A DNA stretch of 39,918 nucleotides from a virus: positions 1-39,918 of IMG/VR virus record IMGVR_UViG_3300031669_000089; one strand, 5' to 3'. Made by a program: the position numbers and the translations under genes. A model generated the notes under the pieces. It was not told the DNA's origin. It saw only the letters and a list, made by a program, of their open reading frames with translations, and made no database searches. Positions 15,809 to 39,120 of the stretch are shown here, one piece after another (the first letter of the stretch is position 1; every line of letters begins with the position of its first letter).

Positions 15809-16275
15809 CAGACGCCCGTCCTCTCATAGAGCCGGAGCGATTCGACATGTCCCTCTCGCACAGTCCGCGAGCCTCCACCGATTGGATCAAATAGTACAAT
15901 CCCCGTGCCGCTTCCTACGACGAAATGGGTAAACTTCGTGTTTGGGTTGTACCATGCCGCGATGCTGTACTTCCCGCTCGCCTCGGGCGCATCCGGTTTG
16001 AAATGGCCATCGATATATCGAAGCGGAAGTCCGAGAAGTTCACAGAGGGCGTTCGGGTGGACGATGTCGAGTTGTGCCGCGTCGTCGAAGTCGCCGTCAT
16101 GGTTCAGATCGCCCGATATCGCACCCTCGTCGATGGCGTCTTGCCATAAGGCGTTTAGTTCCTTCGCGCCCCACGTGTGCCCCATGTATTTTTCACGGTA
16201 GAAAGCGAGGGACATAAAGTAGCACCCGTAATGCTGAATGCGCGGGTCCATGGCGGGGTCGGTCTGGTAGATCAT
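15808..16275 (-). CDS. cysteine-peptidase-like protein, probable endolysin, 155 aa
   Basis: MDPRIQHYGCYFMSLAFYR has the Q..x..G-C-Y context of C39/papain-like peptidases; THFVVGSGTGIVLFDPIGGG gives a His and an Asp-Pro at the spacing of the catalytic His and Asp/Asn. A DLNHDGDFDD segment (about residue 60) looks like an EF-hand-type calcium loop or dockerin piece. Between two holin-like genes, so a peptidoglycan peptidase or amidase is the best guess. ATG 16275 overlaps the previous stop by ATGA; the GTG at 16284 is less likely. Confidence 0.72.
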   Translation of the reverse strand: MIYQTDPAMDPRIQHYGCYFMSLAFYREKYMGHTWGAKELNALWQDAIDEGAISGDLNHDGDFDDAAQLDIVHPNALCELLGLPLRYIDGHFKPDAPEASGKYSIAAWYNPNTKFTHFVVGSGTGIVLFDPIGGGSRTVREGHVESLRLYERTGV

Positions 16276-16508
16276 GACGCGCACCCCTTGACCTTGTGTG
16301 TCGTCTCAATTGCAACGATGCGCTGTCCGTGATCGTCGAGCGTCTCGTCATGCGCGTCGAGTTTTTTGGTCATCCCGTTCAGCGCGGCGGTGTTGTTTTC
16401 GATGACCACCTTGAGCGGGGCGAGGATTACCTTGATCGCCCACGCTATGCCCGTGCCCGCGATGCCGAGGCCCCCGATGATTGCCATGATCGTTTCTGCT
16501 GTTGTCAT
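16272..16508 (-). CDS. holin/hemolysin-like protein (N-terminal TM, coiled coil), 78 aa
   Basis: One TM helix (IMAIIGGLGIAGTGIAWAIKVIL) followed by a coiled coil (LNGMTKKLDAHDETLDDHGQ). This is the reverse order of XhlA but a common phage holin-accessory form. ATG 16508 follows GGAGGGAAG, directly downstream of the conserved hairpin at 16519-16537. First gene of the lysis cassette. Confidence 0.75.
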   Translation of the reverse strand: MTTAETIMAIIGGLGIAGTGIAWAIKVILAPLKVVIENNTAALNGMTKKLDAHDETLDDHGQRIVAIETTHKVKGCAS

Positions 16509-16518
16509 GCTTCCCTCC

Positions 16519-16537
16519 GTCCGTCGTCACGACGGTC
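16519..16537 (-). other. intergenic CCGTC-GTGAC-GACGG hairpin, copy 1
   Basis: Read on the minus strand: GACCGTCGTGACGACGGAC, 5-bp stem and 5-nt loop, next to the ribosome site of the 16508 gene. Upstream (16545-16560) is AACTAA-TTG-TTAGTT, a second small palindrome. One of at least seven copies in the late region. Confidence 0.8.
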
Positions 16538-16588
16538 GATAAACTAACAATTAGTTGGTTAGTGTTCTTGAGAATGGCTCCTTAGATA

Positions 16589-19500
16589 TCAGTTATAGGG
16601 GTACTTCCACGGGATAGATAGGGCGAAGGCAAATCTATAGCAACGAAGGGACTTATTATTATTATCGATAAATGCCACATCAGTACCATTAAGTGCAGCG
16701 AGAGCAGAATATCCTGTACCAGATATTATTGAACTGCCAGCAGATGCCACCTGCTGCCAAGTAGACCCATTGAACCTATAGCAACGAAGTTCATCGTTCA
16801 TCCAGTCAATAAACGCCACATCGGTACCATTAAGCGAGGTTAGAGCGGGCGCTCCTGTACTAGAAATGGTTAAACTAGAACCTATCAAAGACCAAGTAGA
16901 CCCATTGAAACGGTAGCAACGAAGGGACTGATTATTCTCATCGATAAATGCCACATCAGTAGCGTTAAGTGCAGCGAGAGCAGGAAATCCTGTACTAGAA
17001 ATGGTTAAACTAGAACCTATCAAAGACCAAGTAGACCCATTGAAACGGTAACAACTGAGTCCGTTATTGGTGGAACCCACAAACGCCACATCAGTAGCGT
17101 TAAGTGCAGCGAGAGCAGGAAATCCTGTACTAGAAATGGTTAAACTAGAACCTATCAAAGACCAAGTAGACCCATTGAAACGGTAACAACTGAGTCCGTT
17201 ATTGGTGGAATCCACAAACGCCACATCAGTAGCGTTAAGTGCAGCGAGAGCAGAATATCCTGTACCAGAAATGGTTAAACTAGAACCTATCAAAGACCAA
17301 GTAGACCCATTGAAACGGTAGCAACTAAGGGACTTATTATTCTCATCGATAAATGCTACATCAGTAGCGTTAAGTGCGGTTAGAGCGGTCACTCCTGTAC
17401 CAGAAATGGTTAATCCAGTGCCTACCTGTTGTCCTCCACCCCACTGCACCCCGCCACCTTGACTTCCCTCAAAAGACATGCCAGCGACTTTACATGCGCC
17501 GCTGGCCCCGATAAAAAACCCAGACTTAGTCCCATCAACAACCGCGCCAGTTTCGTCATATCGATCACCCCCACGCATCGATCCACCAGTGATGATTTTA
17601 AGATACTTCGTAAACGTCCGATACGCAATCATTTCAATAAGCGTCGTACCTTCAGCGACAGTGATCGGTGGCGCAAAGCATGTTAGCCGGAAAAGGTCTT
17701 CCAGTGCGGCGCTCCGCATTTCGGCGGTCACCCCCGTCTGCGTCCATGCCGATCCGTTCCATAGATACACACCTATGGGCGTCACGGCTCCGGCGTAATT
17801 GACCATCCACTGCCCAGCTGTCGGGGTGATAGAGCCCACGGAGGACGTGGTGCTGTTGGCGGTAATGACTCCGGCAATGAAGGTAGGGGCGGTGATCGAA
17901 TAGCCCGCAAAGGCGGCGGTGCCTGTGGCCGCAAGTTGACCGATGCCAAGATATTTTGGCGCGTTTGTCGGGATGAGTGCAGCGGCTGTAGCATTGGCGG
18001 AAGCAATCGCGGCAGCCTGCGCAGCGGCAGCGGCGGCCGCTCCTATCGTGGTAGCCTGGGCGGCCTGGCGGGCGACGGTCTGGCTCTGAGCCTTGAGCCC
18101 CCACGTCTGCGCGAAATTGTGTTCAACTGGCAAGGTAATATTCGAATTGAATGCGGGGATGGTGCCTGTATCGGCGGTGAAGATGCCCGCGCCGTAGTCC
18201 TGTAGGTGCACCGTAATCGCATAATCGTCGCCCGGCTCTAGCCCGACAACGATGGCCGGAATCGTCCCGCCCTCGGTGCCCTCGCCGTAGTGGTACAGGT
18301 CTTCGATAGCCGGGATGTCGGCGGCAGCTATCGGCGTCGCGAAGCTGGCAACGTAGGTGGATGTGGCCACGGTCACGAGGGGGGCGAAGAGAACGCGGCC
18401 ATCGGAGCAACGCTGGTACGCGATGCTGTAGCTCTTGCCAGCCTCCATCGTGATGATCTCGTCGGAGACGAACGCCGTGGCGTTGCCCGAGCCGTCGAGC
18501 GTGACGGTCTTGACGCGGCCTCCGATGATCCCAAACTCGGGCACGTCATGGCCGAAGCGCACAAGGTCGCCGTATTGCAATGACAGCGCCTGGAAGTCCT
18601 GCTTGACGCTGTAGACCTCAGGTCGCAGGGTGAGCGCGGCGAGCGTGCATCGAACTTCGCGGAATACCTCGTCGGCGTCGGTCTTACCCCAGCGATCCAC
18701 TTGCTCTAGCTTCGTGGCGAGCTTGTAAGTAGTAATACCTTGGTATATCGTACTCGTAGTCTTTGGCGGGTCGGTGATAAGGTCGAAGGCTGAATGGAGA
18801 TTTCCGTCATTGTACACGTCATAGATATACCCATCAGCTAGTACGATCCTTTGATCGGCCTGATACCCTGCGGCAGCGTTGACGAAGCCTACTCGATAAC
18901 CATGCGGGATGTCGGGGAAATCTTTCGTCGCTTGGAAGTCGGCAGTATTGCGCGGATTGATGAGCGCAACGGGCGTCGTCCGCTCAGAGTCGAGGACAAG
19001 GCTATTGATACTCCCTCTTTTGATAGGCACGGCGCGGGCAGTGGCGAGAACCTTCGCAATTGCTTCTTTCCTCGCCATAGCCTTATCGATGACGGCATTG
19101 CAGGTGAGCGGCTTCGTCGCGGCTCTTCCGGCCACGTAGTTGTAGAGCGCTTCGTAGGCTGGATAGTCGATGTTCGCGTCAACGTAGGGCTGGGGATTAG
19201 GACCTACGCCCAGGCCGTCGCCCGTCGCGTCTCCGCGAAGCAGGTACATGGCGATTGCGGCGGGGTTGCTCGTCGCGGCTACCGTCGTCCACTGCGCTCG
19301 GCCCGTGCCCGTTCCCGAGTAGATCGGGATCTTCGCGGTCGCGATGCACGAGACCTTGCCAATATTTCCGTTTAGATAGTCGCTGGCCTTCGCTCGGATC
19401 GAGAGGCGCACGCACTTCGCTGAGATCCCGGGTCGGAGCGGCGAGGCGGCCATTGTCGAGCGGAGAGCCGTCCAGTGCACCGAGTCGCGCACGGTCGTGT

Positions 19501-20380
19501 CAGTCGAGTCGGCGGTGACGCGGTAGACGCGCACGTCGTATTTCCCGGCGATGAGAGCGCCCGATGCGTAGGAGTAGCGGGCGGTTGTCCCGACGAAGGC
19601 GGATTTCGAATCATTGACTAGGGCAAGTGGTGATGACCAGTTTCCTCCCGCTGCCTGATATTCCGCCTTGTAATTAACGGCCGTCGAGAGCGCGGCCGTG
19701 CCCTTGGCGATGCCGTTCGGAAACTCGAAGTCAACTTCTATTTTCGTGCATCCGGCTGGCGTCGTCTGGTAGAGATACGTCGGAGTACCTCCGGGGCTCT
19801 TCATTTCCTCATCGAATTGAACTTCGGTTACGCGCTTCGGATAGTACGTCATGTCGGTAGAGTCGAAACGAAGTTCGGCTTGGACACCATCGAAACCGAC
19901 GCCGTCAATTGTGAGTGAGCCCATTGCTCCCGAGCTATTCGAGGCGAGGAGGTTTTCACCGATGCGCAATTCGCGGACTTCGAGCGGGCCATATCCTATT
20001 AGATAGGACAAGTGCAAATATTGGTCTGCCCCGTCGGTGCCCGCGATCTCGGTGTAGGGGCGGCCGATGAGCGGCGGCGTGATGTAGTGCGTGCCCAGGA
20101 TGAGGGGCGGTGTGCCATCTTTGTTCAGGGAGTTGGAGGAGCCGCGAAGTCCGGATTTACTCGTAAAGGAAGTGCTTGTCCCCCCAACTCTCCCATCCAT
20201 AACATCATCAGCCGCACCATATCCCGCCCTGTATCCAGCGTTGAAGCCTGCAATTGGATTATGCCCACCAACGCCATATCCAATAGCGGTAACGGTTGCA
20301 TATGCCAATCCAATGGCTGTTTTCGCAAGTTCTTGGATGCCTCCGACTAGGGCATCCCATGGATTCGACCAGCCAGCCAT
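16589..20380 (-). CDS. tail tip / host-specificity protein with repeat receptor-binding domain, 1263 aa
   Basis: The largest gene. The N-terminus (GWSNPWDALVGGIQELAK, ILGTHYITPPLIGRPYTEI) and a middle with TTYKLATKLEQVDRWGKTD and fibronectin-like EPGDDYAITVHLQDYGAGI fit J-like central tail tip proteins that follow the tape measure. An Ala-rich coil (about residues 760-790) leads to a distal part. The last 280 residues are six 45-residue repeats, (A)LNATDVAFIDENN, CYRFNGSTW, SLIGSSLTIS, with the look of beta-propeller blades, probably binding the host surface. Start overlaps the 20380-20853 gene by TGATG. Confidence 0.85.
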   Translation of the reverse strand: MAGWSNPWDALVGGIQELAKTAIGLAYATVTAIGYGVGGHNPIAGFNAGYRAGYGAADDVMDGRVGGTSTSFTSKSGLRGSSNSLNKDGTPPLILGTHYITPPLIGRPYTEIAGTDGADQYLHLSYLIGYGPLEVRELRIGENLLASNSSGAMGSLTIDGVGFDGVQAELRFDSTDMTYYPKRVTEVQFDEEMKSPGGTPTYLYQTTPAGCTKIEVDFEFPNGIAKGTAALSTAVNYKAEYQAAGGNWSSPLALVNDSKSAFVGTTARYSYASGALIAGKYDVRVYRVTADSTDTTVRDSVHWTALRSTMAASPLRPGISAKCVRLSIRAKASDYLNGNIGKVSCIATAKIPIYSGTGTGRAQWTTVAATSNPAAIAMYLLRGDATGDGLGVGPNPQPYVDANIDYPAYEALYNYVAGRAATKPLTCNAVIDKAMARKEAIAKVLATARAVPIKRGSINSLVLDSERTTPVALINPRNTADFQATKDFPDIPHGYRVGFVNAAAGYQADQRIVLADGYIYDVYNDGNLHSAFDLITDPPKTTSTIYQGITTYKLATKLEQVDRWGKTDADEVFREVRCTLAALTLRPEVYSVKQDFQALSLQYGDLVRFGHDVPEFGIIGGRVKTVTLDGSGNATAFVSDEIITMEAGKSYSIAYQRCSDGRVLFAPLVTVATSTYVASFATPIAAADIPAIEDLYHYGEGTEGGTIPAIVVGLEPGDDYAITVHLQDYGAGIFTADTGTIPAFNSNITLPVEHNFAQTWGLKAQSQTVARQAAQATTIGAAAAAAAQAAAIASANATAAALIPTNAPKYLGIGQLAATGTAAFAGYSITAPTFIAGVITANSTTSSVGSITPTAGQWMVNYAGAVTPIGVYLWNGSAWTQTGVTAEMRSAALEDLFRLTCFAPPITVAEGTTLIEMIAYRTFTKYLKIITGGSMRGGDRYDETGAVVDGTKSGFFIGASGACKVAGMSFEGSQGGGVQWGGGQQVGTGLTISGTGVTALTALNATDVAFIDENNKSLSCYRFNGSTWSLIGSSLTISGTGYSALAALNATDVAFVDSTNNGLSCYRFNGSTWSLIGSSLTISSTGFPALAALNATDVAFVGSTNNGLSCYRFNGSTWSLIGSSLTISSTGFPALAALNATDVAFIDENNQSLRCYRFNGSTWSLIGSSLTISSTGAPALTSLNGTDVAFIDWMNDELRCYRFNGSTWQQVASAGSSIISGTGYSALAALNGTDVAFIDNNNKSLRCYRFAFALSIPWKYPYN
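16607..17420. repeat. six 135-bp tandem repeats in the tip-protein gene
   Basis: The marker GTAGACCCATTGA recurs at 16761, 16896, 17031, 17166 and 17301, exactly 135 bases apart. The copies around 17031 and 17166 differ at only a few bases. The segment is clearly poorer in GC than the rest. Differences between units cluster in two short patches (DENNKS, DSTNNG, DWMNDE; GYS, GFP, GAP). Confidence 0.93.
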
Positions 20381-20853
20381 CAGAACGCCCCCGGATTGTT
20401 CACCGGCGATAGCGTGTCACCGGGCATCATAATATCCATCGGGTCTTCATCGACGAGTTGGCCCGAAGCGTGAAGGTCGGTGTACGCAAGCGGTTTCCAC
20501 TGGAACGTTCCGAAGCTCACGCCGTCATCGGGGGCGCTCGCAAGGGCCAGCACGATGTTGACCATGAGCGGGCCATTGATCGGCGAGGCGGTGCGGAGAT
20601 TCGTAATAGTTGATAGGTCTACCGCGTCGATGTCGAGGCTCGCGATTCCTTGGTTCCCGTTTTGCTCGGGCGGCAGTATGAGTAGCGAGCCCAGCGCAGT
20701 GTACACCTGTCCAAGGCGCGTCTGGTTCACCGTGTCATTGACGAGGTAGGTCGTCGTGATGTCGGGGTGCGTTATGGTTAAAAACGCGAGGAGCACGTCA
20801 TTCGCTTGTGGTGCGAGAGCCTTCGCGATCCATGCGGCGGGTAGGGTAATCAT
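20380..20853 (-). CDS. DUF1833-like tail protein, 157 aa
   Basis: FLTITHPDITTTYLVNDTVNQ, LLILPPEQNGNQGIASLDID and PLMVNIVLALASAPDD fit the DUF1833 family of phage tail proteins found just before the tip protein in siphoviruses. Probably part of the distal tail. Start overlaps the previous gene by ATGA, stop overlaps the tip gene by TGATG. Confidence 0.8.
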   Translation of the reverse strand: MITLPAAWIAKALAPQANDVLLAFLTITHPDITTTYLVNDTVNQTRLGQVYTALGSLLILPPEQNGNQGIASLDIDAVDLSTITNLRTASPINGPLMVNIVLALASAPDDGVSFGTFQWKPLAYTDLHASGQLVDEDPMDIMMPGDTLSPVNNPGAF

Positions 20854-21701
20854 GGGACCACCTCAAGGGAGAACATCGCGCGGGACCCTAGCCCCTCGAT
20901 TGGGTACTGCGGCCGTTGGCCCTGTTTGAAGCGCACTGTCAATGTCTCGCCCGTGTCGGGTGTCGTCCAGTAGAACGGATTGACGCCACCGAGCGAAAGA
21001 TAGAATTGTTCGAGTATTTGTTTTTGTGCGGTGTCGAGGTGATACTGCACGTTGATGAGGCGCGGAGCGGAGGTCGAGCGCAGTCGGATCTTTGCGGGGC
21101 CGGTGGCCATGTCGGAGCGGATGATATTGTCGCGCAGGCTGTCATCGTAGCCATCAGATAGGGGGAACTCGGGCAGGGCCTTGTAGAGCGTCGATGTCTG
21201 GGCGATGCGCGCAATCTCGGAATCGCCTAGTACGACGTTGTAGCGCTGAACCTCGTCTATGGTTCCATTCGCGGCGGCGTTCGTCTCCCATGCGTTATCG
21301 GCGGGGGCGAGGCCGGTGGACGGCGCAAGAGTAGCGGATGGGGCTAACCCTGTGAGTGCGAGGATGAGGCGATTCGCGACTAGGTTCCCGATTCGCGTAA
21401 CTGGGTACGCTTCAAGGTTGGACGCAACGGCGAACGTCCCGCGCCTCGTGCCTCCCGCGAATATCCCAAGTGTAGTACCCGAGAGCGTCGCGGCCACGGC
21501 CAGCCATGTATTATCAACTACGAAGAATCCCGTCGATAGGAAACTAGCCGGTGCCATCGTGCTATCGATGATCGCGCCAAGATAGCCCGACGGGTTGATA
21601 ACGAGATGGCACCGCTCCGAAAAGAGCGTCGGGAATGAGGCAAGCACTCGATAGTGCCCATTGGCTGCGCCGTTGTAGGCAAGTGTAATCGTCTGCGGCA
21701 T
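20850..21701 (-). CDS. minor tail protein with C-terminal half of a LamG-like domain, 283 aa
   Basis: Residues 1-160 look like the middle and end of a LamG/concanavalin fold (WLAVAATLSGTTLGIFAGG, GTIDEVQRYNVVLGDSEIA) without its first strands. These first strands occur alone in the gene at 22567-22794. The rest (FPLSDGYDDSLRDNIIRSDM, GPAKIRLRSTSAPRLI, YWTTPDTGETLTVRF) is a minor tail domain common before DUF1833 genes. Preceded by the hairpin 21711-21728. Confidence 0.78.
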   Translation of the reverse strand: MPQTITLAYNGAANGHYRVLASFPTLFSERCHLVINPSGYLGAIIDSTMAPASFLSTGFFVVDNTWLAVAATLSGTTLGIFAGGTRRGTFAVASNLEAYPVTRIGNLVANRLILALTGLAPSATLAPSTGLAPADNAWETNAAANGTIDEVQRYNVVLGDSEIARIAQTSTLYKALPEFPLSDGYDDSLRDNIIRSDMATGPAKIRLRSTSAPRLINVQYHLDTAQKQILEQFYLSLGGVNPFYWTTPDTGETLTVRFKQGQRPQYPIEGLGSRAMFSLEVVP

Positions 21702-21710
21702 CGGTCCTCC

Positions 21711-21728
21711 GTCCGTCTCACGACGGTC
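21711..21728 (-). other. intergenic CCGTC-GTGA-GACGG hairpin, copy 2
   Basis: Minus strand GACCGTCGTGAGACGGAC, followed by GGAGGACCG and the ATG at 21701. Preceded by CCAATTGATTC, nearly as before the hairpin at 27138-27156 (CCAATTGATAC). Confidence 0.8.
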
Positions 21729-21742
21729 GAATCAATTGGCTA

Positions 21743-22087
21743 TTAGTTTTGAGCGATAACAGTCTTTGCCGCCGTGATCGCAGCGCGTGCGGCCTTGCGT
21801 TGATCGAGCACGCTTTGAAGCACTGCCTCGCCCGTCTCGGCGGAATAGGCGAAATGCCAATCAGTCGAAGTGAGGATCGCCTGATTCGTGGCGATGGTCT
21901 GTTGCGCGAGCGCTTCGGGAGTCGGAGGCGGCGGCACGGGCTCAGGGACAAGGGCTTCGGGGTGGGCGGCGAGGTAGGCTTTGACTTCGGCGTATTCCGT
22001 AGGGTTGTCTGCCTCTGTGAGGATTATCCCGATCCCCCCTCGTTCATCAAATCTGATAAGTGCATTCCCGGACTGTCGTATTCTCAT
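21743..22087 (-). CDS. tail-fibre-assembly-like protein, 114 aa
   Basis: MRIRQSGNALIRFDERGG followed by a Pro-rich linker (VPEPVPPPPTPEAL) and a helical ILTSTDWHFAYSAETGE segment. The motif TDW near the C-terminal third and the place after a fibre-type gene recall tail fibre assembly chaperones (S-D-W-T). Part of the two-gene cassette between hairpins 2 and 3. Starts one base after the previous stop. Confidence 0.6.
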   Translation of the reverse strand: MRIRQSGNALIRFDERGGIGIILTEADNPTEYAEVKAYLAAHPEALVPEPVPPPPTPEALAQQTIATNQAILTSTDWHFAYSAETGEAVLQSVLDQRKAARAAITAAKTVIAQN

Positions 22088-22088
22088 G

Positions 22089-22538
22089 TCATACCTCGCT
22101 AAAATATTCGAGCTTATAATATAGGTTTGCCACCCCGCCTGATGTCTGCGTGGTTCCTATGTTTCCAGCCACACCGCTCGCTTGTATGGTGAGGTTTGTC
22201 GCTGTCTTGAGCATCGTGACAACAGCCGCACCCCCGGCAGAAGAATAGGTTACAAGAGCCACGGCATGATAGGTATCGATTCCCGCCGCATCAGCATAAC
22301 AATGTACCAAATAGATGTTGTCGCCAGAGCAAGTGAAGAATGCCCATTCCGCTGAGTCGGCCCTTGACACAGGGCCTCCCTTTATCCCCTTCGGCGCAGG
22401 CGGATATCCCCCATTGCCCGTGTACTTATCCGCCGACATCTCGAGCGCGAAGTTCTTCAACGAGTTCAGATTCGCTGCGCTAATCGGGACCGTAGCGCTC
22501 CCGTCTACGAATGTCCCAGGATTATTATATGCACTCAT
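22089..22538 (-). CDS. probable tail fibre / adsorption protein, 149 aa
   Basis: Begins MSAYNNPGTFVDGSATVPIS, a start seen in short fibre N-termini that insert in the tail, followed by GNGGYPPAPKGIKGG and a beta-rich Gly/Ala/Thr part. The downstream chaperone-like gene supports a fibre role. Composition is less GC-rich than its neighbours. Preceded by hairpin 3. Confidence 0.6.
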   Translation of the reverse strand: MSAYNNPGTFVDGSATVPISAANLNSLKNFALEMSADKYTGNGGYPPAPKGIKGGPVSRADSAEWAFFTCSGDNIYLVHCYADAAGIDTYHAVALVTYSSAGGAAVVTMLKTATNLTIQASGVAGNIGTTQTSGGVANLYYKLEYFSEV

Positions 22539-22549
22539 CTATTCCCCCT

Positions 22550-22568
22550 GTCCGCTATCACGGCGATC
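22550..22568 (-). other. intergenic hairpin, copy 3 (diverged)
   Basis: Minus strand GATCGCCGTGATAGCGGAC: UCGC pairs with GCGG through one wobble pair, loop CGUGAUA. It overlaps the stop codon of the 22567-22794 gene and precedes AGGGGGAATAG and ATG 22538. The loop GTGA is kept although the stem changed. Confidence 0.65.
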
Positions 22569-22794
22569 AAATATCCATCGCGTCGGTAGCAGCGGTGAAA
22601 CTGCGCCCGCGTCCCGAAATACCCACAGTATCAGCCGTACCAGTTAGTACAGCAGTATCGCCCAAGCCCGAAGTATCTGCCCCCGGAGTGGCGGCATTGT
22701 CGAAAGACCAATAGCCCGTAAGCCCTGGGCGCCGGATGATATACCCCACGCCCAGGACCAGGTCGGTCGTGGTCGGGAAACTCGGGTAACTCAC
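22567..22794 (-). CDS. short protein with the N-terminal strands of a LamG-like domain, 75 aa
   Basis: RPGLTGYWSFDNAATPGADT and GRSFTAATDAMDI are the first two strands of a LamG/concanavalin domain (G.WSFD....D.SG), then the protein ends at a stop inside hairpin 3. The complementary rest is in 20850-21701. It may be a real short protein paired with the other chain, or the 5' remnant of a gene split by insertion of 21743-22538. Start overlaps the tape measure stop by ATGA. Confidence 0.65.
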   Translation of the reverse strand: MSYPSFPTTTDLVLGVGYIIRRPGLTGYWSFDNAATPGADTSGLGDTAVLTGTADTVGISGRGRSFTAATDAMDI

Positions 22795-25154
22795 GACGAC
22801 ACCCTCCTCGCGCTCTGCGATGCCCGCGCAATCTCGCCTCGCGCAATGCGGCGGAACGCAACTTCGACCGACCGCGCGCCCGAGGAATCCACGGTCTCAC
22901 TTTGCGTTGCCTCGTAGCCCGACGGCGGGGCGATGTTGACGTTGACCGTCGCGCTTCCCGGCACGTTGAGGCCGTCTGCGTAACCCCGTGCTACATGGTT
23001 CGGGATGATCTGCGATCCTGTCGGCACGCGCATGAGTTCCGGCCCACGCTCGCCCACCCAGGACCATCCACCCATGGCGTAGTTCGTCCCGCTGGCATAT
23101 CCTGACAATGCTGACGACTTGCGGGCCTGCTGGTTGAACGCTTCGGTCTGCTGGTAGTACGCGGTGAGTGCGGCGAGGTCGGCGGCGGATGATCCCGTGG
23201 AGGTGCCGGAGGTGGAGTTCGATGCGCTCATGTAGCCGCCGAGTATTTCCATGCCACCACCAGCGAGGAATAGCGGGATACCTATTTCAAACTGTCCCGC
23301 CATCATTGCGGTGAGCCCCGCATTCATCATCAGCGCCCCGCTTTGCGACGCGGCTTGCGAGACGATGCTTTGCATGGACTGAGCCATGGAGTCGGCACCG
23401 CTTGCCCCGGCAGCCAGGGCTTTCCCAATGCTGTCGAAGGTGGATACGATGGAGGATTCACCGACGGCGAGCATGGACGCCTTGAGCCTATCCATAGCCT
23501 GAGCTTGCGCATCAACAGCCAGCGGATTGCTTGGCCCATTCTTGACCGGGTTAGTCGTATCGATTGCCCCGCCCCAATGATTGTATGGGACATTTCCCCA
23601 CGAGGCGTTCGAAACAATTGGTTCCTGACCTGGTTGCGCTGTAGGAATACCGCTCATGTAGTCGAAGCGATTTTGGTACGTATTGGACGGATTAGCATTG
23701 CCCGTAAGCGACGCATAAAAAGCCGAAAGCGTCGTGCGTGTCGTTGGACCATACAGTCCTTTTTGCGCGAGGGTGAGCATCGTTTTTTGAACATCGCTCG
23801 CGGCTCCCGAATACACGCCAAGGAAATCCTTTGAGGTGTCGTGAGCAACTTTTAGTTGCGCCTGAACTTCGAAGTTCACGCGGGCCATGTAATCGGCGAG
23901 AGACTCTGAGCCTGTCGAAGCCTTGAACCCGGCAGACCATACCTGATCGCTCGTTAGCGCTGGCGCGTCATAGCCCGAAGGCCCAAGACTGCTTCCTCCG
24001 CCATGTTCCCCCGTGTTCCACTGCTGGTCTTTTAGGACCTGCTCGGCAGCTTTCAGCCGGGCTTCGAGGACTTGCACCATCGCTTGCGCTTCGAAGCCTC
24101 GATTGTAAACGGGGCTCCATCCTGATTGCTCTTCCCCTGTACCTGGATTTATCCATGTCCCCTGATGAAAAAGGTCGTAAGCCCATCCGCCCGTCGGGCC
24201 TTGGCCTGTCTGAGCGGCTATCGCTTTCTGTTGAGCTATTTGCGATTTCAGATCGGCGACAATGCCTTGCCCGTCACCCCGACCAGTTGTTATGTATTTG
24301 AGTTGGGTATGGGTGTTGATGATGTCGCCTAGCTTGGCATTCCAATAGTCAAGTTCCCGATTGATCGCGGGAATCATCGTCGTGCCGATGTCGGACAGAA
24401 TGGCCTTCACACTGTCCTGAGCATTGGCGAACTTTCCGGCAGTCGTGGCCGAAATCTTGTTGAGCATCCCGTCGAACTGGCCGCCCGCTTGCGTCACTCG
24501 GAAGAATGCCTCCTCGACCTCGGCGGACGAAATCTTGCCTTGCTCCATGCGCTTTCGAAGCTCAAGCATGGACTCGCCTGTTCGTTTGGATATATCAAGA
24601 AGCGGGTTGAATCCAACACTGATCATCTGCAAGAGGTCTTGGCCCATGAGCCTCCCGGCCGATGACATTTGTCCATAGGCCAGCGATAGGCGCGACAGGC
24701 GATCATTGTCACCCATGGAAATATCGCCTAGCATCTTCATGGTTGGGAGAATCTTTTCCGTTTCAATTCCATAGGATCGGAGAAGCGTTGCAGATTGGTT
24801 GACGCCCTCGAAAGACAGGACGGTCTTTTGGGCGAAGGTGAAGAGCTTGTCGAACATCTGCGAGCCCTTGTTCATGTCGCCAACAAGGACACCCCACGCC
24901 ATTCGTGATTTTTCGAAGGACACGGCTAGGACTACGGATTCCTTAACAGTGTCCTTAATAAATGAGACAACCTTTTGTCCGGCCTGAACGACAAGTCCGA
25001 ATCCGGTATTGAGCCCGGCGATCTGCATGGCGAGCTTGCCGAAAGACATTTCCGCCTGCCCGCCCGCCTGGTCGATGCGCTGCAATCCGGCGATGGTTTG
25101 CTCGGCATTCGTGAGGCGCGCGTTCAGCTCGAGCGTTGTAACTTCGGTCGCCAT
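22791..25154 (-). CDS. tail tape measure protein, 787 aa
   Basis: The N-terminal 330 residues match the tape-measure domain: LNARLTNAEQTIAGLQRIDQ, SFEKSRMAWGVLVGDM, FGVLV-like, DRLSRLSLAYGQMSSAGRL, GQDLLQMISVGFNPLLDISK, GKISSAEVEEAFFRVTQAGG. Hydrophobic helices follow around residues 590-680 (SGALMMNAGLTAMMAGQFEI), as expected for a protein that enters the membrane at DNA ejection. Using 0.15 nm per residue the tail would be near 120 nm. Preceded by hairpin 4 and the frameshifted chaperone pair. Confidence 0.93.
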   Translation of the reverse strand: MATEVTTLELNARLTNAEQTIAGLQRIDQAGGQAEMSFGKLAMQIAGLNTGFGLVVQAGQKVVSFIKDTVKESVVLAVSFEKSRMAWGVLVGDMNKGSQMFDKLFTFAQKTVLSFEGVNQSATLLRSYGIETEKILPTMKMLGDISMGDNDRLSRLSLAYGQMSSAGRLMGQDLLQMISVGFNPLLDISKRTGESMLELRKRMEQGKISSAEVEEAFFRVTQAGGQFDGMLNKISATTAGKFANAQDSVKAILSDIGTTMIPAINRELDYWNAKLGDIINTHTQLKYITTGRGDGQGIVADLKSQIAQQKAIAAQTGQGPTGGWAYDLFHQGTWINPGTGEEQSGWSPVYNRGFEAQAMVQVLEARLKAAEQVLKDQQWNTGEHGGGSSLGPSGYDAPALTSDQVWSAGFKASTGSESLADYMARVNFEVQAQLKVAHDTSKDFLGVYSGAASDVQKTMLTLAQKGLYGPTTRTTLSAFYASLTGNANPSNTYQNRFDYMSGIPTAQPGQEPIVSNASWGNVPYNHWGGAIDTTNPVKNGPSNPLAVDAQAQAMDRLKASMLAVGESSIVSTFDSIGKALAAGASGADSMAQSMQSIVSQAASQSGALMMNAGLTAMMAGQFEIGIPLFLAGGGMEILGGYMSASNSTSGTSTGSSAADLAALTAYYQQTEAFNQQARKSSALSGYASGTNYAMGGWSWVGERGPELMRVPTGSQIIPNHVARGYADGLNVPGSATVNVNIAPPSGYEATQSETVDSSGARSVEVAFRRIARGEIARASQSARRVSS

Positions 25155-25166
25155 ATTCCCCTCACT

Positions 25167-25181
25167 GCGTCATCACGACGC
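25167..25181 (-). other. intergenic hairpin, copy 4 (compensatory stem change)
   Basis: Minus strand GCGTC-GTGAT-GACGC, three bases after the stop of the frameshift product and just before AGTGAGGGG and ATG 25154. Compared with CCGTC...GACGG both the first and last stem bases changed together, so pairing is kept; this supports an RNA or cruciform structure. Confidence 0.75.
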
Positions 25182-25184
25182 TGC

Positions 25185-25909
25185 CTAGTCCTGTAGCGCC
25201 TCGCGGAGCGCACCGTCCATCGCCATAATTGCTTCGAACTCGAAGGCGTCGAGCGGAACGCCTGTCACCGCCTGGTATTGCGCGAGGTCGTGCCATGTGA
25301 CCCGCACGCCCCCGAAGCCCTCGCTGCCACCGCTACGAACGTCCCAGAAGAGCCGCCACAGATAGGCGAAGCCCTCGGGTATCGGTTTACCGTCGAGCGC
25401 CTTGTCGTGCGGCAGCCCGGAGCGCTCTAGGGCCTCTAGGTTCTGCCGAACCGTCCCCGACTTCGGGTGCTTCGGATCGGCAGGCTTTTCGAGGACCGCC
25501 CATGCCTTGACCGCCTCCGTCAGCTCCCGGAGGCAGTCATGAAAAAATTGGCGCGGTCGGTGAAGAAGTTCGACGCGAGGGACATAATCTCGGGATACCG
25601 CCGATAGAATGCCTCGCCATTCTCGGGCTTGAAGTCGAAGGTCTTCCCGTCCTCTTCGAGCCCGTAGGATGATTTCGTCGCGGCGACGAGGCGCTCATAA
25701 AGCTGCGCTTCGGCATCATCGACGGTGAGGGCTGATTTTCGCTCGCGGTTTCGGACGGCTATCTCCTTTTCCTTCGCGCGATAGACGGCGGAGTCAGCCC
25801 CGTACATGACGAGCCCGGCTTCCTCCTCCGTCGCTGTCTTGGCCTGGAGAATGAGCTTCATGCCCTTGTCGGCATTCGTGATCGAATCGAACTTCTTCTT
25901 CAAATCCAT
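25185..25909 (-). CDS. tail assembly chaperone, -1 frameshift product (gpGT-like), 241 aa
   Basis: Translation starts at 25909 and shifts -1 at the slippery TTTTTTC (25541-25547 on the plus strand as GAAAAAA). The second frame, with no start of its own, reads HDCLRELTEAVKAW, YLWRLFWDVRSGG and FEFEAIMAMDGALREALQD, the pattern of C-terminal chaperone parts next to tape measure genes, and stops at 25185. The count 725+1 nt gives 242 whole codons. Both products usually bind the tape measure during tail assembly. Confidence 0.85.
25520..25909 (-). CDS. tail assembly chaperone, unshifted product (gpG-like), 129 aa
   Basis: ATG 25909 follows AAAGGAG at nine bases. MDLKKKFDSITNADKG and a helical, charged body with EAFYRRYPEIMSLASNFF. 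The frame ends 21 bases after the slip site (MTASGS stop). Place between tail tube and tape measure and the slippery site define it as the G-type chaperone. The longer frame to 26002 is a shadow of the tube gene. Confidence 0.88.
   Translation of the reverse strand: MDLKKKFDSITNADKGMKLILQAKTATEEEAGLVMYGADSAVYRAKEKEIAVRNRERKSALTVDDAEAQLYERLVAATKSSYGLEEDGKTFDFKPENGEAFYRRYPEIMSLASNFFTDRANFFMTASGS
25541..25547 (-). promoter_or_regulatory. programmed -1 frameshift site TTTTTTC
   Basis: In the zero frame the codons are AAT TTT TTC ATG; T-TTT-TTC fits X-XXY-YYZ exactly, and both tRNAs can re-pair after a slip. The frame reached continues for 120 codons. Confidence 0.85.
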
Positions 25910-25923
25910 TGCAATTGTCTCCT

Positions 25924-27126
25924 TTACGCGAGTTTGGAAATCTTCATGTTGACGACACCGGCAGCGAGGGTGCCCGCCGTGGTGTCCTTCTCGGCAGTCC
26001 ACGAGAACGTATGCAGGCGCTTGTTTTCTTGGATGTCGTCGGTGGGCATGTCGAGGCGGATGTTCGGGATGTCGATTACATAGCCCGAGGTCTGGGCGGC
26101 ATTGAGCATCTGGACCCTCAGTGCTATGTGCGTGTTGTTGAAAGCCTTGGTGAGCATTGCGCCCGAAGTGAAGGCGAGCGTCATCGAACCCGTGAGCGTC
26201 GATCTGCCGAGAAGGATGTCGTAGGCTACGGTCTGGAATGCCCCGATGAAATCCTCCATACCGTTGGCGAGCTGCAAGCTCAGCGCGGTGACGACCGCCG
26301 AGGGCACGCCGTCGATGTAGAGGAACGATAGAGCGTTGTAGGCGACGAATGGTTCGGAGGTCGTCGCGGCAACGTCGGAACCTGTGCGGTACTTGACGGC
26401 GGCCGGAGCGGGAAGGCTAAAGGCAATCCCATCGAAAGACCCCGTAACCACACCGCCCTGTTGAATCGCCAGCGACATCTGGTTTACCTCGAAGCCGATG
26501 GCACGCTGGAACACGTTGACATCGGCCTGCGCGTCTTCCACGGAAAGCGACTTCTCCACGATGCCCGCAACGATGTAGGACATTTTCGTTACGGAGATCC
26601 CGGTCTGCGCGGAAGCGGCGGCGAGGCGCGAAGTGCCGTCAGCATTGACCGCTTCGGCAAGGGTGATAGTCCCCGTTGCCTGAGTCGTCACTCGGAAATA
26701 CCCATTGTTGTAGACATAGGCTCCCGTGAAACCCGAGACCTTGATCCAGTCGCCTACCGCGAGGCCGGTACCGATTGCGGTTGCGGCCATCGTGTTTGTG
26801 GTCCCGGCAACGACCGTCACCGATTGCCCGGTAACAGGCGTCCCCGCAGCCACCCACGGGTTGCACATGACCGATTCGATCCAATCCTCGTGAGTTCCAA
26901 AGGACAGTTCAAAGGGGAAAGTACCCTTCGCGTGCTTCGCTCCGAGAATACCAGGGGCGACAGATCGATCAGCCCGAAGTTCGGCCGACTGGAAACTCTG
27001 CGCTTCGTTGTATAGCCGAGCCCCTGCCAGGAACCGATCGGTGGAATACGCCGTCCCGGGATCGGTATTGATAACCGCTTCCTTGACGTGATAAATCTGA
27101 TGCTGTGCACCACTAGCTATAGCCAT
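25924..27126 (-). CDS. major tail (tube) protein, 400 aa
   Basis: FPFELSFGTHEDWIESVMCN, VEKSLSVEDAQADVNVFQR, GFEVNQMSLAIQQGG and NKRLHTFSWTAEKD fit the phage tail tube protein fold: a tube core with an inserted Ig-like part (about residues 95-160, TVVAGTTNTMAATAIG...). It lies upstream of the chaperone pair as in lambda (V-G-T-H order). ATG 27126 follows AGGGGGAC, after hairpin 5. Confidence 0.9.
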   Translation of the reverse strand: MAIASGAQHQIYHVKEAVINTDPGTAYSTDRFLAGARLYNEAQSFQSAELRADRSVAPGILGAKHAKGTFPFELSFGTHEDWIESVMCNPWVAAGTPVTGQSVTVVAGTTNTMAATAIGTGLAVGDWIKVSGFTGAYVYNNGYFRVTTQATGTITLAEAVNADGTSRLAAASAQTGISVTKMSYIVAGIVEKSLSVEDAQADVNVFQRAIGFEVNQMSLAIQQGGVVTGSFDGIAFSLPAPAAVKYRTGSDVAATTSEPFVAYNALSFLYIDGVPSAVVTALSLQLANGMEDFIGAFQTVAYDILLGRSTLTGSMTLAFTSGAMLTKAFNNTHIALRVQMLNAAQTSGYVIDIPNIRLDMPTDDIQENKRLHTFSWTAEKDTTAGTLAAGVVNMKISKLA

Positions 27127-27137
27127 TTCGTCCCCCT

Positions 27138-27156
27138 ATCCGTCGTCGCGACGGTC
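27138..27156 (-). other. intergenic CCGTC-GCGAC-GACGG hairpin, copy 5
   Basis: Minus strand GACCGTCGCGACGACGGA, between the tail terminator-like stop and the tube gene ribosome site. The spacer before it begins with CCAATTGATAC, close to copy 2. Confidence 0.8.
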
Positions 27157-27168
27157 AAGAAATCAGTA

Positions 27169-27606
27169 TCAATTGGGCACGTCGGCCCAGCCTTGTACGA
27201 CGACCGCTATCTTGAGCCACTTCGGGTCGGAGTCGTCGGTCGCTTGTCGATAGGATTTTTCGCACGTCACGGTCTGAGCGTTGCGCACGAATGCAATTCC
27301 CCGCTTGTAGGCCGCCATGATGCGCTCGGCCTCGGTTGCGGTCGTGTCCTCGCCCTTATTGGCGGGGTCGAAAATGTCAACCTGGAAAATGAACACAGTG
27401 CGATTTGCGGCGACTGATCCGATACCAGCAGCGCGCGGAATACCGGGAATGAACGTCGGTCGATACCATCGAGTCGTCCTGGTTGTCTGGTTGAAGGCCC
27501 TTCCCTTCCACGCAACGTCAGCCGAGGCAATAGCGAGCCCCCCGCCAACGAGTGGCGCGGTCAACACGGATTCGAGGGCCTGGCGAACGTCTTCAAGGTT
27601 ACTCAC
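27169..27606 (-). CDS. tail terminator-like protein (DUF4128-like), 145 aa
   Basis: MSNLEDVRQALESVLTAPL, then TRWYRPTFIPGIPRAAG, NRTVFIFQVDIFDPANKG and EAERIMAAYKRG fit the DUF4128/gpU-like tail completion family that caps the tail tube. Correct place between the neck protein and tube. It overlaps the upstream gene by eight bases. Confidence 0.78.
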   Translation of the reverse strand: MSNLEDVRQALESVLTAPLVGGGLAIASADVAWKGRAFNQTTRTTRWYRPTFIPGIPRAAGIGSVAANRTVFIFQVDIFDPANKGEDTTATEAERIMAAYKRGIAFVRNAQTVTCEKSYRQATDDSDPKWLKIAVVVQGWADVPN

Positions 27607-28102
27607 CGGCTGCCCCGATGTCCCAGTTTCCGCCCATGCTCAAGGGTGATCGTGCGCCCCCAAAGGTTCCGCCCTGGGACTCTGCGGCGGCGTCCTGAGC
27701 GATGCCCCCGATCTCGGCCATGGTAATCTTGATCATGCCGTTCGGGGCTTGCTTCGAGTGCCCGTCTTCGAGGGGCTTGATGTAAGGCCGGTTGTTCGAC
27801 ATGGTGATAGCCCGGCCCGTGAGCGGGTGCCAGTTGGTCACCGCGTCCTGAGCCTCCGCGACAGCATTCGCCCCAGACGGGTCGGCCCCGGTCGCTCCCC
27901 GGAGCCCGAGTTTCCGGGTGAACCATCCCATAACGCCGGAGCTGCACTGCCATCCGCCGCGCGCGGCTCCCGTATCGACCGGGGTCCTCATGATGACGCG
28001 GCTGAAGGCGGTAAACACGATCTTGCGCGCCACGAGGTCCAGATTCCCTTGGGCCTTCGCAATGAGCATCCCGAGCGGAATGCTCCATGTCGCGCCGTTC
28101 AC
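27599..28102 (-). CDS. HK97 gp10-like neck / tail-completion protein, 167 aa
   Basis: FSRVIMRTPVDTGAARGGWQ and TMSNNRPYIKPLEDGHSKQA give the R-T-P-V-D-T-G-x-A-R...N...Y...E-x-G-x-S pattern typical of gp10-type neck proteins. Last 20 residues are Gly/Ser rich. ATG 28102 overlaps the previous stop by ATGA. Confidence 0.85.
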   Translation of the reverse strand: MNGATWSIPLGMLIAKAQGNLDLVARKIVFTAFSRVIMRTPVDTGAARGGWQCSSGVMGWFTRKLGLRGATGADPSGANAVAEAQDAVTNWHPLTGRAITMSNNRPYIKPLEDGHSKQAPNGMIKITMAEIGGIAQDAAAESQGGTFGGARSPLSMGGNWDIGAAGE

Positions 28103-28677
28103 GATGACACCCTCACGGTGTACGTAATGTCCACGCCCCCGGGCGACAGCGGGTCACCGTCGCGGATGACGAGGTTCGCGTCGGGTTCAAGCGACAGGAT
28201 AAGTTTGTCATTTACCTGCGGCTTCGTCGGCGAGGCGATCAAGTAGAACCTCGTCCCGGTGGCGATGAGCGATCCGGGGATGAGGGAGGCTTCGTAGAGC
28301 ACTTTGGAGTTGGACGATTCCTTGAAAGCCGAGCAAGCCACGTCCCGCGTCGCGCTTGCCGACACGCCCGCCGCATCCGTCACGTTGACGAGCCCCGCAG
28401 CCGTCGCGCACGTCAGCACGAGTGCCGCCACGGTCGAGGCGACGAAGCCCGCGTTATTGCCCGCGTCGAGGAAGCCCGTAAAAACTACCGTGTCGCCCGC
28501 GATAAAGCCGTCCGTGATCCACGAGCCCGAGGAGCGCGTGAAGGTCTTGCCTGTCGCGTCTACCGTGATCGTCAGGCCGGGGTCGTAGCCAAGGGAGACG
28601 ACGCGGCGAAGGGTGGCGGGCTGGCCGAACTCGGTGATGAGGGCGGCGGCGTCGGCGGCAAGGGCGGCGTAGTCCAT
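28099..28677 (-). CDS. structural protein of the head-tail connector region, 192 aa
   Basis: ATG 28677 overlaps the connector stop by TGATG. N-terminus DYAALAADAAALITEFGQPAT, with ITEFGQPATLRR as in head closure proteins, then an inserted beta domain (DAGNNAGFVASTVAALVLTC) and a C-terminal FYLIASPTKPQVNDKLIL with RDGD. Probably the head-closure (stopper) protein with an added Ig-like domain. The longer upstream frame is a shadow. Confidence 0.75.
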   Translation of the reverse strand: MDYAALAADAAALITEFGQPATLRRVVSLGYDPGLTITVDATGKTFTRSSGSWITDGFIAGDTVVFTGFLDAGNNAGFVASTVAALVLTCATAAGLVNVTDAAGVSASATRDVACSAFKESSNSKVLYEASLIPGSLIATGTRFYLIASPTKPQVNDKLILSLEPDANLVIRDGDPLSPGGVDITYTVRVSS

Positions 28678-29177
28678 CACGTCCTCACCAGAGACACGTT
28701 GCCCCCACCTCGCACGATGCGGGCGAGAGGCTGGCGGATTGCGGGATAGGCGATGATCCCCGCGCCCGAGTTGCCGTCCCACGACTTCGAGATTGCCCCG
28801 ACGCCGAGAGTCTTTAGGCCGCGTTCGAACTTGAGAGACAGCGCGCCCGGGGTGGCAAGTTCCACGAGGGCGGCCTCGCAGGTCGCGGCGACAATCTGCG
28901 GCGGGAGAAGGAGGAGCGGGTACCCGTCGCGGTCCCATGCGTAGGCACGCGGCCAGTCGAGGGATTGCGTGTAGAGGAGTCGCTTCCCGGGCCACCGATC
29001 CCCGTAGATCGAGTCAAGCGCCGCTGTCCCCCGGATGAGGGCAGCGGTGCGGAGGGGATCGGTCGATGCAGCCCATGCGGCGTTACCATGGTCGGCATGG
29101 TAGGCCAGGGCATCAGCGAGCGAAACGTAAGAGTTCGCGCCCGTGATGCCCTGGCCAGTTTCGACGGAGAGGGCCAC
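28677..29177 (-). CDS. head-tail connector, DnaT-like family, 166 aa
   Basis: GQGITGANSYVSLADALAYH, AALIRGTAALDSIYGDRWPG and SLDWPRAYAW follow the phage family annotated as putative DnaT-like ssDNA-binding (a misnomer: these sit at the connector ring position). Starts four bases after the 29181 stop. Adaptor role is inferred from order after the coat genes. Confidence 0.85.
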   Translation of the reverse strand: MALSVETGQGITGANSYVSLADALAYHADHGNAAWAASTDPLRTAALIRGTAALDSIYGDRWPGKRLLYTQSLDWPRAYAWDRDGYPLLLLPPQIVAATCEAALVELATPGALSLKFERGLKTLGVGAISKSWDGNSGAGIIAYPAIRQPLARIVRGGGNVSLVRT

Positions 29178-29180
29178 GGC

Positions 29181-30152
29181 CTACGCCGTCGTCGCAATTC
29201 CGCCGCCAGCCGAAGCCGCAGCGGTGGGCATGGTGGTATACACGACGGTGGACGGACCCCATGCGGTGAAGTTGACGAGATCGGACTTGCCCCGGACGAG
29301 TACCTTGTCGTTCGCGCCGGTCTGGATGAAGACAGCAGCGGGCGTGGTCACGGAAGTGATCGCGTTGAAAAGGCAGTCCTCAAAGACCGTCCCACGTCCT
29401 CCCGTGGTCGTGTCGAGATCAACGGCAGCATGAGCGGTTCCGGCCGAGACGTAGGAAAGGAACTCGCAGCGCTTGAACCTAGTACGCGCCACTGCGCCAT
29501 AGAGCCAGAGGTCACAGTCGGCGTGGTTGCCATGCGCGAAAGTGTCGGAACCGATGACGCAATCCTCGAAGGTGTTCTCCTCGCCAGCGGCGACCTTGAG
29601 CGCGTATTTCGTTGCGACTGAGGCAGAGCCGACTGCCCCTGCGAAATGCACGTTCTTGAAGTGGTTGCGGTGGCCTGAGACAATCACGTCGCCCACGGCT
29701 GCCGCGTTCGTGCCCTCATTGATGAACATGAGATTTTCGAAGCGGTTATTGCTACCGGAAATAGTGATAAGCGAAGCGAGGTTGACCACTGACGCGGTAT
29801 TTGCCACGCGCGCTCGATTGAACATCTGGTTGCCCGAAGAGATGCCCACTACGGTTATGGCGCTTTTACTCCACGCAAGGGCCGCCGAGAGGAAGGAGGA
29901 GGTATAGGTGCCATCGGAGCCGTAGGAGAACACGCAGATGCCGTCTCCGACGAGATCGGTACAGGCATCATAGGCGCTCTTGAGGCCCGCAAAGGCGCTG
30001 CCGGGCGAAAGTCCATCGTTTGCGGCGAGTCCGTCAACGGGATCGACGAAGTACCACGTTCCTCGGATGGGCGGGAGCGAACCAAGGATTAGGTCGAGAT
30101 CCTTGGAGCTTCCCTTATAGTTGCCGTAGCCGTCAGTTTTGGTCTTAGCCAT
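29181..30152 (-). CDS. right-handed beta-helix protein, probable head fibre or decoration, 323 aa
   Basis: GTWYFVDPVDGLAANDGLSP begins like pectate-lyase-fold proteins (F-V-D...D-G...G). Repeated Asn/Phe turns (SGSNNRFENLMFINEG, GHRNHFKNVHFAG, EENTFEDCVIG, RTRFKRCEFL, GRGTVFEDCLFN) are rungs of a beta helix. Located directly after the coat gene, so a capsid-bound fibre or decoration is likely; binding sugar or host surface is possible. Start has a GGGGAGGGC ribosome site. Confidence 0.82.
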   Translation of the reverse strand: MAKTKTDGYGNYKGSSKDLDLILGSLPPIRGTWYFVDPVDGLAANDGLSPGSAFAGLKSAYDACTDLVGDGICVFSYGSDGTYTSSFLSAALAWSKSAITVVGISSGNQMFNRARVANTASVVNLASLITISGSNNRFENLMFINEGTNAAAVGDVIVSGHRNHFKNVHFAGAVGSASVATKYALKVAAGEENTFEDCVIGSDTFAHGNHADCDLWLYGAVARTRFKRCEFLSYVSAGTAHAAVDLDTTTGGRGTVFEDCLFNAITSVTTPAAVFIQTGANDKVLVRGKSDLVNFTAWGPSTVVYTTMPTAAASAGGGIATTA

Positions 30153-30167
30153 TTTGTTGCCCTCCCC

Positions 30168-31325
30168 TTACTCGGCCAGGATGGCCACGAATTCCGGCTT
30201 GACCGTCTTCCAGCCCCACACGCAGCAGACCTCGTACTTGACTCGCCTGTGCTCGTTGTACTTGCGGACCTCGAAAGAAAGGCCGGTCAGGGGATCGGTG
30301 ATCATGGTCGAATCGACGGCAGAGTCGCCGCCGTCGGGCATAGCTGGCGCGCGGGTGCAAAGGTGAATGGCATTGCGCGCGAAAGCCATGTTGGGGGTGT
30401 AGGAGGTCGCGATGAGCGGCGTGATCGCGTCGGTCGCTCCGGTATGGACAACGCGAGAGCCGGGGGCATTGAGCGTCAGCGAGGTGCCCGCTCCGGTGCC
30501 GACGAGCTGCGACACATAGACGTTGTTCACATCGTTCGCAATCTTGAGGAGATCCCCCGCCTTGATGGACGCGGCAACCGCCCCGGTCGTGGTCATGGCG
30601 GTGTCCCCTAGGGCGATGTCGGTACAGACCGCGTTAGCATAGGTGCCGTTCGTGTGCGCGGAAATCTGCGCGGACTCGTGGATATCGAACTCCATGAGTC
30701 GGGCAATCGCGCCGTTGCGGAGAAGGTCGGCGCTTCCGGCCTCGTTGACCTTGAAAAGGAACTCAGCAGAGCGGAGAAGCGCACCTGCCGAGGAACCGAG
30801 GACAAGCTGAAGCTCTTCGCCCTGCGCACCGTTGTCCATCAGGATACGGCGAAGCTGGGCAAGAGAGGAAAGCTTGTCGGTGGAGTCGAAGAGGTAAAGA
30901 CCCGTGCTCTTGACCGCGCGGGAGGCATAGATGTACTGAGTCGCGAGGTCGGCCTCGATGGCATCCACGAGGGCACGGATCGCCTTAGCGAACCGGTCGC
31001 GCATGATGTTCGCACCCACCCCGGAATTGGCGAGGCCCTTAGCCTCTTCGCCGTTGATCTGGATCGGAGCGTAGTAGTCCTTGGAAAGCGTCATGTCCGC
31101 GTAGGAAATAGTCGCCTCACCGTTCTCGACGGGATAGAGGCTCGCGGAGCCAGCGGCGAGGGTGATGTCGGGAACGATGGGATAGCGGATCGTCTCGCCA
31201 ACAGCCGCGCGGGCGACGCTGGAATTCTTGTAGACGGCGGGAATGAATCCGACCATCTTCTTGGCGACAATATCCATCGCCTCGTAAATGGTGGGTATCA
31301 GCCCGGTAAGGGTGTTGTCAGCCAT
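30168..31325 (-). CDS. major capsid protein, P22 coat-like, 385 aa
   Basis: TLTGLIPTIYEAMDIVAKKM, YPIVPDITLAAG, YYAPIQINGEEAKGL, GANIMRDRFAKAIRALVDAI and FARNAIHLCTRAPAMPDGGD follow the P22 gp5-type coat family (HK97 fold with an insertion domain). Length 385 is usual. Scaffold gene precedes it and the hairpin copy 6 lies between them. ATG 31325 follows AGGAGAAG. Confidence 0.93.
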   Translation of the reverse strand: MADNTLTGLIPTIYEAMDIVAKKMVGFIPAVYKNSSVARAAVGETIRYPIVPDITLAAGSASLYPVENGEATISYADMTLSKDYYAPIQINGEEAKGLANSGVGANIMRDRFAKAIRALVDAIEADLATQYIYASRAVKSTGLYLFDSTDKLSSLAQLRRILMDNGAQGEELQLVLGSSAGALLRSAEFLFKVNEAGSADLLRNGAIARLMEFDIHESAQISAHTNGTYANAVCTDIALGDTAMTTTGAVAASIKAGDLLKIANDVNNVYVSQLVGTGAGTSLTLNAPGSRVVHTGATDAITPLIATSYTPNMAFARNAIHLCTRAPAMPDGGDSAVDSTMITDPLTGLSFEVRKYNEHRRVKYEVCCVWGWKTVKPEFVAILAE

Positions 31326-31336
31326 GGTCTTCTCCT

Positions 31337-31354
31337 GTCCGTCTCCCGACGGTC
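31337..31354 (-). other. intergenic CCGTC-GGGA-GACGG hairpin, copy 6
   Basis: Minus strand GACCGTCGGGAGACGGAC, with a GNRA-type GGGA loop, before the coat gene. Twelve bases separate it from the scaffold stop. Confidence 0.8.
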
Positions 31355-39083: not shown

Positions 39084-39120
39084 GCCCTCTCCCCCTTGCT
39101 CCCGACGGTCTGGCTTGTAA

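Follow-up and report, generated by a model that had tools for sequence, protein, structure and literature searches.

The late genes of the tailed phage analysed here, which has a P22-type coat protein and late genes on the - strand, raise the question of why one short hairpin should recur directly before them. The initial annotation of the window (the whole 39,918-base virus record) had described such a repeat and offered RNase processing, a site for a translation regulator, or linkers for gene exchange as possible roles. The repeat is confirmed: six copies, five good and one weaker, lie directly before an SD sequence and start codon on the - strand (Table 1). The coarse pattern CCGTC-N3..7-GACGG has seven matches in the window against 0.57 expected, a number reached in 0 of 100 shuffles; three of the seven (13355, 14369, and 18492) are intragenic and are not the element. 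The compensatory stem change at 25167 (GCGTC/GACGC) is real, and the outer pair there has also flipped from G-C to C-G. The copy at 22550, said to keep its stem, holds four pairs (one of them G-U) but has a mismatch next to the loop. Those at 32112 and 39099 are present but degenerate (one broken pair, GACAG for GACGG, in the first; loss of the 3' arm in the second), and the covariance model reports neither up to E=5. No U-run follows any copy, the stem of the six copies leading instead into an SD sequence and start codon, in keeping with the view that these are not terminators.

Table 1. Hairpin copies and hairpin-led genes of the window
Feature	Position	Strand	Details
Hairpin before major capsid gene	31337..31354, stem 31339-31352	-	CCGTC-GGGA-GACGG, outer pair G-C, SD AGGAG flush after; 36.9 bits
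Hairpin before tail tube gene	27138..27156, stem 27140-27154	-	CCGTC-GCGAC-GACGG, outer pair G-U; 34.9 bits
Hairpin before tape measure gene	25165..25183, stem 25167-25181	-	GCGTC-GTGAT-GACGC, outer pair C-G, two compensated pairs; 27.6 bits
Weaker hairpin before 149-aa late gene	22550..22568, stem 22552-22566	-	TCGCC-GTGAT-AGCGG, mismatch beside loop; 23.4 bits
Hairpin before virion structural gene	21711..21728, stem 21713-21726	-	CCGTC-GTGA-GACGG; 37.3 bits
Hairpin before 78-aa gene adjoining fibre gene	16519..16537, stem 16521-16535	-	CCGTC-GTGAC-GACGG; 36.1 bits
Degenerate copy	32112..32129	-	CCGTC-GCGA-GACAG, without SD or start codon right after
Half copy before 73-aa gene	39095..39110	-	GA-CCGTC-GGGA, 3' arm missing
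Major capsid (coat) protein gene, hairpin-led	30168..31325	-	phrog_283, 3.1e-79
Tail tube/major tail gene, hairpin-led	25924..27126	-	phrog_290, 7.4e-50
Tape measure gene, hairpin-led	22791..25154	-	phrog_9959 and others
Virion structural gene, hairpin-led	20850..21701	-	phrog_384, 2.3e-18
149-aa late gene, led by weaker hairpin	22089..22538	-	without PHROG match
78-aa protein gene, likely membrane segment, hairpin-led	16272..16508	-	without PHROG match; relatives in G007, G029

On the mRNA (- strand) the element has the form G-A-(5-bp stem, usually CCGUC/GACGG)-GNGA(N) loop-A-C-AGGAG-AUG. It is a small hairpin whose loop, of GNRA type, has 4 or 5 nt (GNGA with or without one further base); an A is left unpaired on the 5' side, and the SD usually lies flush, with zero gap, against the single outer pair. 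The strict loop, the conserved A, and the outer pair abutting the SD go beyond what had first been described. The consensus is GACCGTC-GNGA(N)-GACGGACAGGAG; the coat-gene copy in the window reads, on the coding strand, GUGA-CCGUC-GGGA-GACGG-ACAGGAGAAGACC-AUG. A U-A outer pair combined with a CTGTC/GACAG stem defines a sub-type, CTACTGTC-GNGA-GACAGAAGGAG, in two phages (L176 18643-18677; L177 1428-1462; L178 9097-9131), and tandem arrays place two or three GNRA hairpins before a single start codon (L012 84-175; L159 10497-10574; L164 near 2001). Pairing past the outer pair is not conserved. The stability of single-leader folds is unremarkable, and because some leaders show competing folds, the folding energies neither support nor rule out the structure. 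A switch in which an upstream U-rich stretch masks the SD was rejected: columns 10/30, 9/31, and 8/32 pair in just 29, 26, and 17 of 46 rows, so this pairing is not conserved.

Together, pattern scans and a covariance model recovered about 60 copies; the phage or prophage contigs that carry them number about 35 and belong to at least four unrelated lineages. The exact pattern with one free loop position matches 33 stretches in viral contigs, mostly with an SD and start codon after them. A relaxed structural scan of the carrier contigs found other stems in the same place (TCGCC/GGCGA, ACGTC/GACGT, CTGCT/AGCAG, CCGGC/GCCGG, and GCGTC/GACGC), and the covariance model found repeated copies in many carriers, with a maximum of six per phage. 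By shared genes the carriers fall into at least four groups: contractile-tailed phages (G007, G008, G010, and G012), those with a phrog_212 capsid (G011, G019, and G028), those with a phrog_10 capsid (G003, G005, and G015), and that of the window (G000 and G029).

In bacterial genomes the exact pattern matches 64 stretches; 59 of these lack an SD and start and are attributed to chance, and of the five that have both, three examined closely adjoin phage integrase, terminase, or capsid genes. One prophage carrier lies within a bacterial contig (record titled Deltaproteobacteria) between NADH dehydrogenase and glycine cleavage genes, and a second (record titled Desulfarculales) adjoins CoA-transferase and PTS genes; other carriers are in records titled Spirochaetales and Spirochaetaceae. 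A general host leader was also considered and rejected, the element being rare in the bacterial genomes sampled: the model matches in just 1 of 297 and 5 of 296 genomes from the phyla of two carriers, with the starting genome counted in each; just some of the further hits there have the full element, and the strict filters may lose weak copies.

Among cultured phages, a convincing hairpin copy is absent from eight whose coat or portal proteins are related, megablast with the window's late region gave no match, and short blastn matches are chance-like (the one in Arthrobacter phage Urla sits within its capsid gene). Single-protein searches of viral contigs with the window's coat and portal proteins gave no relatives. 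Above the gathering score, Rfam recognizes no family in the window and tRNAs alone in six carriers. No description of the hairpin was found in the openly licensed literature; it is probably a translation-control element, apparently undescribed so far, that is shared by many unrelated and mostly uncultured phages.

Comparison of the copies identifies the element as a cis-acting RNA structure selected at the RNA level. Inner-stem covariation in the relaxed scan is partly circular because that scan required five pairs. When two stem pairs were left free, 13 stretches (12 distinct) were recovered and 13 of 13 pair at both positions, the first of which has A-T, C-G, or T-A and the second T-A or C-G; the stems covary across carriers, and the earlier claim that pairing is under selection stands. 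With the loop left free (3-8 nt), 14 stretches were found: all 13 before starts have GNGA or GNGAN, and the remaining one, whose loop differs, is not followed by a start. The outer pair, unused in the choice of rows, pairs in 46 of 46 (42 GC, 2 CG, and 2 GU); leaving it free in the scan gained U-A members before starts, and L236 is an additional member with C-G. The A beside it is kept while the pair swaps among G-C, U-A, and C-G.

Strand and position are similarly constrained. Sense copies with the A and outer pair number 57 and antisense copies zero, the GNRA loop being read on the mRNA strand only. In 39 of 59 copies no gap separates the SD from the hairpin, and most have 9-14 nt between hairpin and start codon. 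Of the hairpins that combine a GNRA loop with the A and outer pair, 56 stand at ribosome sites and 31 do not, versus 19 and 481 for other loops; these counts include the seed copies, which at about one per contig are too few to explain the difference.

Hairpin-led genes include major capsid genes of six PHROG families (283, 10, 212, 371, 1357, and 247), major tail or tube genes of families 290, 158, and 4699, and genes for tail sheath (165), fibres, DNA ejection proteins, endolysin, GroES, terminase subunits, and excisionases. Across 30 carrier contigs, a hairpin leads 8 of 13 capsid genes versus 42 of 767 other genes (p=1.6e-7), and 6 of 9 major tail genes versus 44 of 771 others (p=3.7e-6), figures that are approximate because genes were called by a simple script and classified by phmmer; three chance-looking copies of the 59 scanned (G011_22269, G013_740, and G022_11539) were left out of the test. 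The remaining 5 of the 13 capsid genes have no copy. In the window, the coat, tube, tape measure, and virion structural (phrog_384) assignments hold, but the genes labelled lysis (78 aa) and fibre (149 aa) have no PHROG match; the portal, terminase, head morphogenesis, and neck genes are without a hairpin copy. In three prophages (L158 2639-2675; L161 13483-13519; L162 5727-5762) the gene that follows the hairpin is not a virion gene but a small excisionase-like one close to the integrase.

Our preferred reading, to which we give an even chance, is that the element is a cis-acting, start-associated hairpin that boosts the translation of virion genes with high-copy products, with a host component as its partner. 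A GNRA loop with an unpaired A and an outer pair, set close to the SD, would be expected of a structure that is recognized by the ribosome during initiation or by a factor present where initiation takes place. Given that the carriers are unrelated phages with different hosts and no common phage gene, the simplest partner would be a host component widespread among bacteria, above all the ribosome. That capsid and major tail genes are preferred points to a positive effect. From these patterns we infer the positive effect, the action at initiation, and a host-component partner across bacterial groups.

After transcription the leader would fold into the 5-bp stem, GNRA-type loop, unpaired A, and outer pair, with the SD beginning at the outer pair or within a very short distance of it. 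In the initiation complex the hairpin would sit on the side where mRNA leaves the 30S subunit, beside the SD/anti-SD helix and perhaps stacked on it. There its loop and unpaired A could contact the ribosome or some other factor of wide conservation; the SD would stay open, and initiation on high-copy virion genes would rise. A bolder version, possible but clearly less probable, is a portable phage RNA module, acquired by unrelated lineages in different host phyla without a phage-encoded partner, in which the GNRA hairpin docks on the 30S subunit beside the SD/anti-SD helix and prioritizes virion mRNAs. Counting against an enhancer, some hairpin-led genes are not high-copy (excisionases, terminase subunits, and a methyltransferase-like gene in G018), and 5 of the 13 capsid genes in carriers lack the hairpin.

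Conservation of the loop, A, and outer pair could equally be accounted for by a dedicated regulator, and the chief rival, possible although clearly less probable, is a translational operator: a trans-acting protein of phage or host would bind the hairpin and repress or activate initiation at the adjacent SD, timing a set of genes. The strict loop, unpaired A, and outer pair resemble a protein site, some leaders (L012 and L159) have two or three tandem hairpins, and timed expression would suit the excisionase genes of prophages. However, comparison of shared genes found no protein family common to all carriers, although a shared phage gene could be missed because carriers are often fragmentary contigs. 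Phage-encoded CsrA was found in 0 of 18 carriers while controls matched, a result that concerns phage-borne and not host CsrA; phage-encoded bS21 was likewise found in 0 of 18, and a search for the Com zinc-finger family matched 0 of 18 carriers and none of its controls. Any regulator would also have had to spread alongside a motif shared by unrelated phages in different hosts. Of the roles first suggested for the repeat, one at the level of translation fits best.

An effect on mRNA processing or stability is unlikely. A nuclease such as RNase E would cut in an upstream A/U-rich stretch, leaving the hairpin to cap the 5' end and prolong the life of late mRNAs. The hairpins do divide genes within long operons, and in the 15 nt upstream of them the A/T content exceeds that at matched control positions (57% vs 46%, p=1.5e-7). 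Stabilizing 5' hairpins, however, require no fixed loop, unpaired A, or zero SD spacing, and processing by RNase III, as first proposed, is improbable for a stem of 5-6 bp. Two further explanations have very little to recommend them. Many inverted-repeat copies at gene borders, common to several phages, could suggest a repeated DNA site (an operator, promoter part, or recombination linker), but the change between 4- and 5-nt loops, the covarying stems, the confinement of GNRA to the mRNA strand, and a position set by the SD and not by promoter spacing contradict this, including the gene-exchange linkers of the initial annotation. Equally remote is a plain structural insulator, in which any stable small hairpin would suffice and shared sequence would reflect ancestry: C-G-closed GNRA hairpins are stable, but stems change while loop, A, and outer pair stay, and hairpins with other loops show no enrichment at this position.

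We place the element among start-associated translation-site RNA elements, of which the nearest described are the start-associated sequences (SAS) and extended SAS (ESAS) found in mycobacteriophages of Cluster K and the comparable sequences of Microbacterium phages in clusters EF and EG. Cluster K SAS follow a 13-bp consensus, GGGATAGGAGCCC, and lie at the ribosome sites of non-structural genes only, about half of them with imperfect 17-bp inverted repeats (4-13 bp spacers) upstream (PMC3203893); SAS/ESAS occur in Cluster EF and inverted repeats in Cluster EG Microbacterium phages (PMC7302621). Like SAS/ESAS, the present hairpin is repeated within a genome, lies at the ribosome sites of some but not all genes and in the same orientation as the gene, and includes an AGGAG core. 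That core is all it has in common with the SAS consensus, however, and in place of 17-bp inverted repeats it has a 5-bp stem, one outer pair, and a 4-5 nt GNRA-type loop; it prefers capsid and major tail genes and crosses unrelated lineages, whereas SAS are confined to narrow phage clusters.

Leader hairpins of phage mRNAs that act on translation of the next gene, as is predicted here, include that of mom in phage Mu, on which Com acts (PMC6483171), and the gene 43 operator of phage T4, where gp43 acts on its own mRNA (PMC3014915). Each of these has one target and a known phage protein, in contrast to the many genes per phage, GNRA loop, and lack of any phage-encoded partner found for the present element. 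The boxB hairpin of lambdoid nut sites also has a 5-bp stem and a GNRA-like loop, but it works with boxA in early leaders and on transcription, whereas every copy here is fused to an SD and has no conserved upstream block. The coat-protein operators of ssRNA phages are short hairpins with a 5'-side unpaired A at a ribosome site; here the carriers are DNA phages with many copies, the loop is of the GNRA kind, and a different base lies opposite the unpaired A. One ssRNA phage, Esthiorhiza.4_18 (L105 1838-1862), has a match between its coat and replicase genes, GACCGTC-GTAA-GACGGACAG (GUAA loop, 34.7 bits), that is nearly identical to the DNA-phage element yet has no start codon right after it; coincidence is possible.

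As a compact RNA signal, the element singles out the major capsid and major tail genes of unrelated phages. If it does boost initiation, it would show how phages prioritize virion mRNAs on the host ribosome, provide a small portable expression part and an aid for finding late genes and related phages in metagenomes, and offer a testable RNA model for the long-unexplained start-associated repeats of other phages.

The window has several other features. A 12-bp repeat array (39104-39311) codes for a Glu-Pro-rich protein, and the half hairpin copy lies at its edge within a small overlapping frame. The tail fibre gene (1263-aa) ends in at least six tandem 135-bp (45-aa) repeats with internally shuffled segments (16638-17431), an end that looks like a variable host-recognition part. 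A DNA cytosine methyltransferase-like gene (phrog_363; 37958-38905) is located upstream of the terminase genes, and the early region encodes a pentapeptide-repeat-like protein (ADLQGANLQGADL...; 6631-7251).
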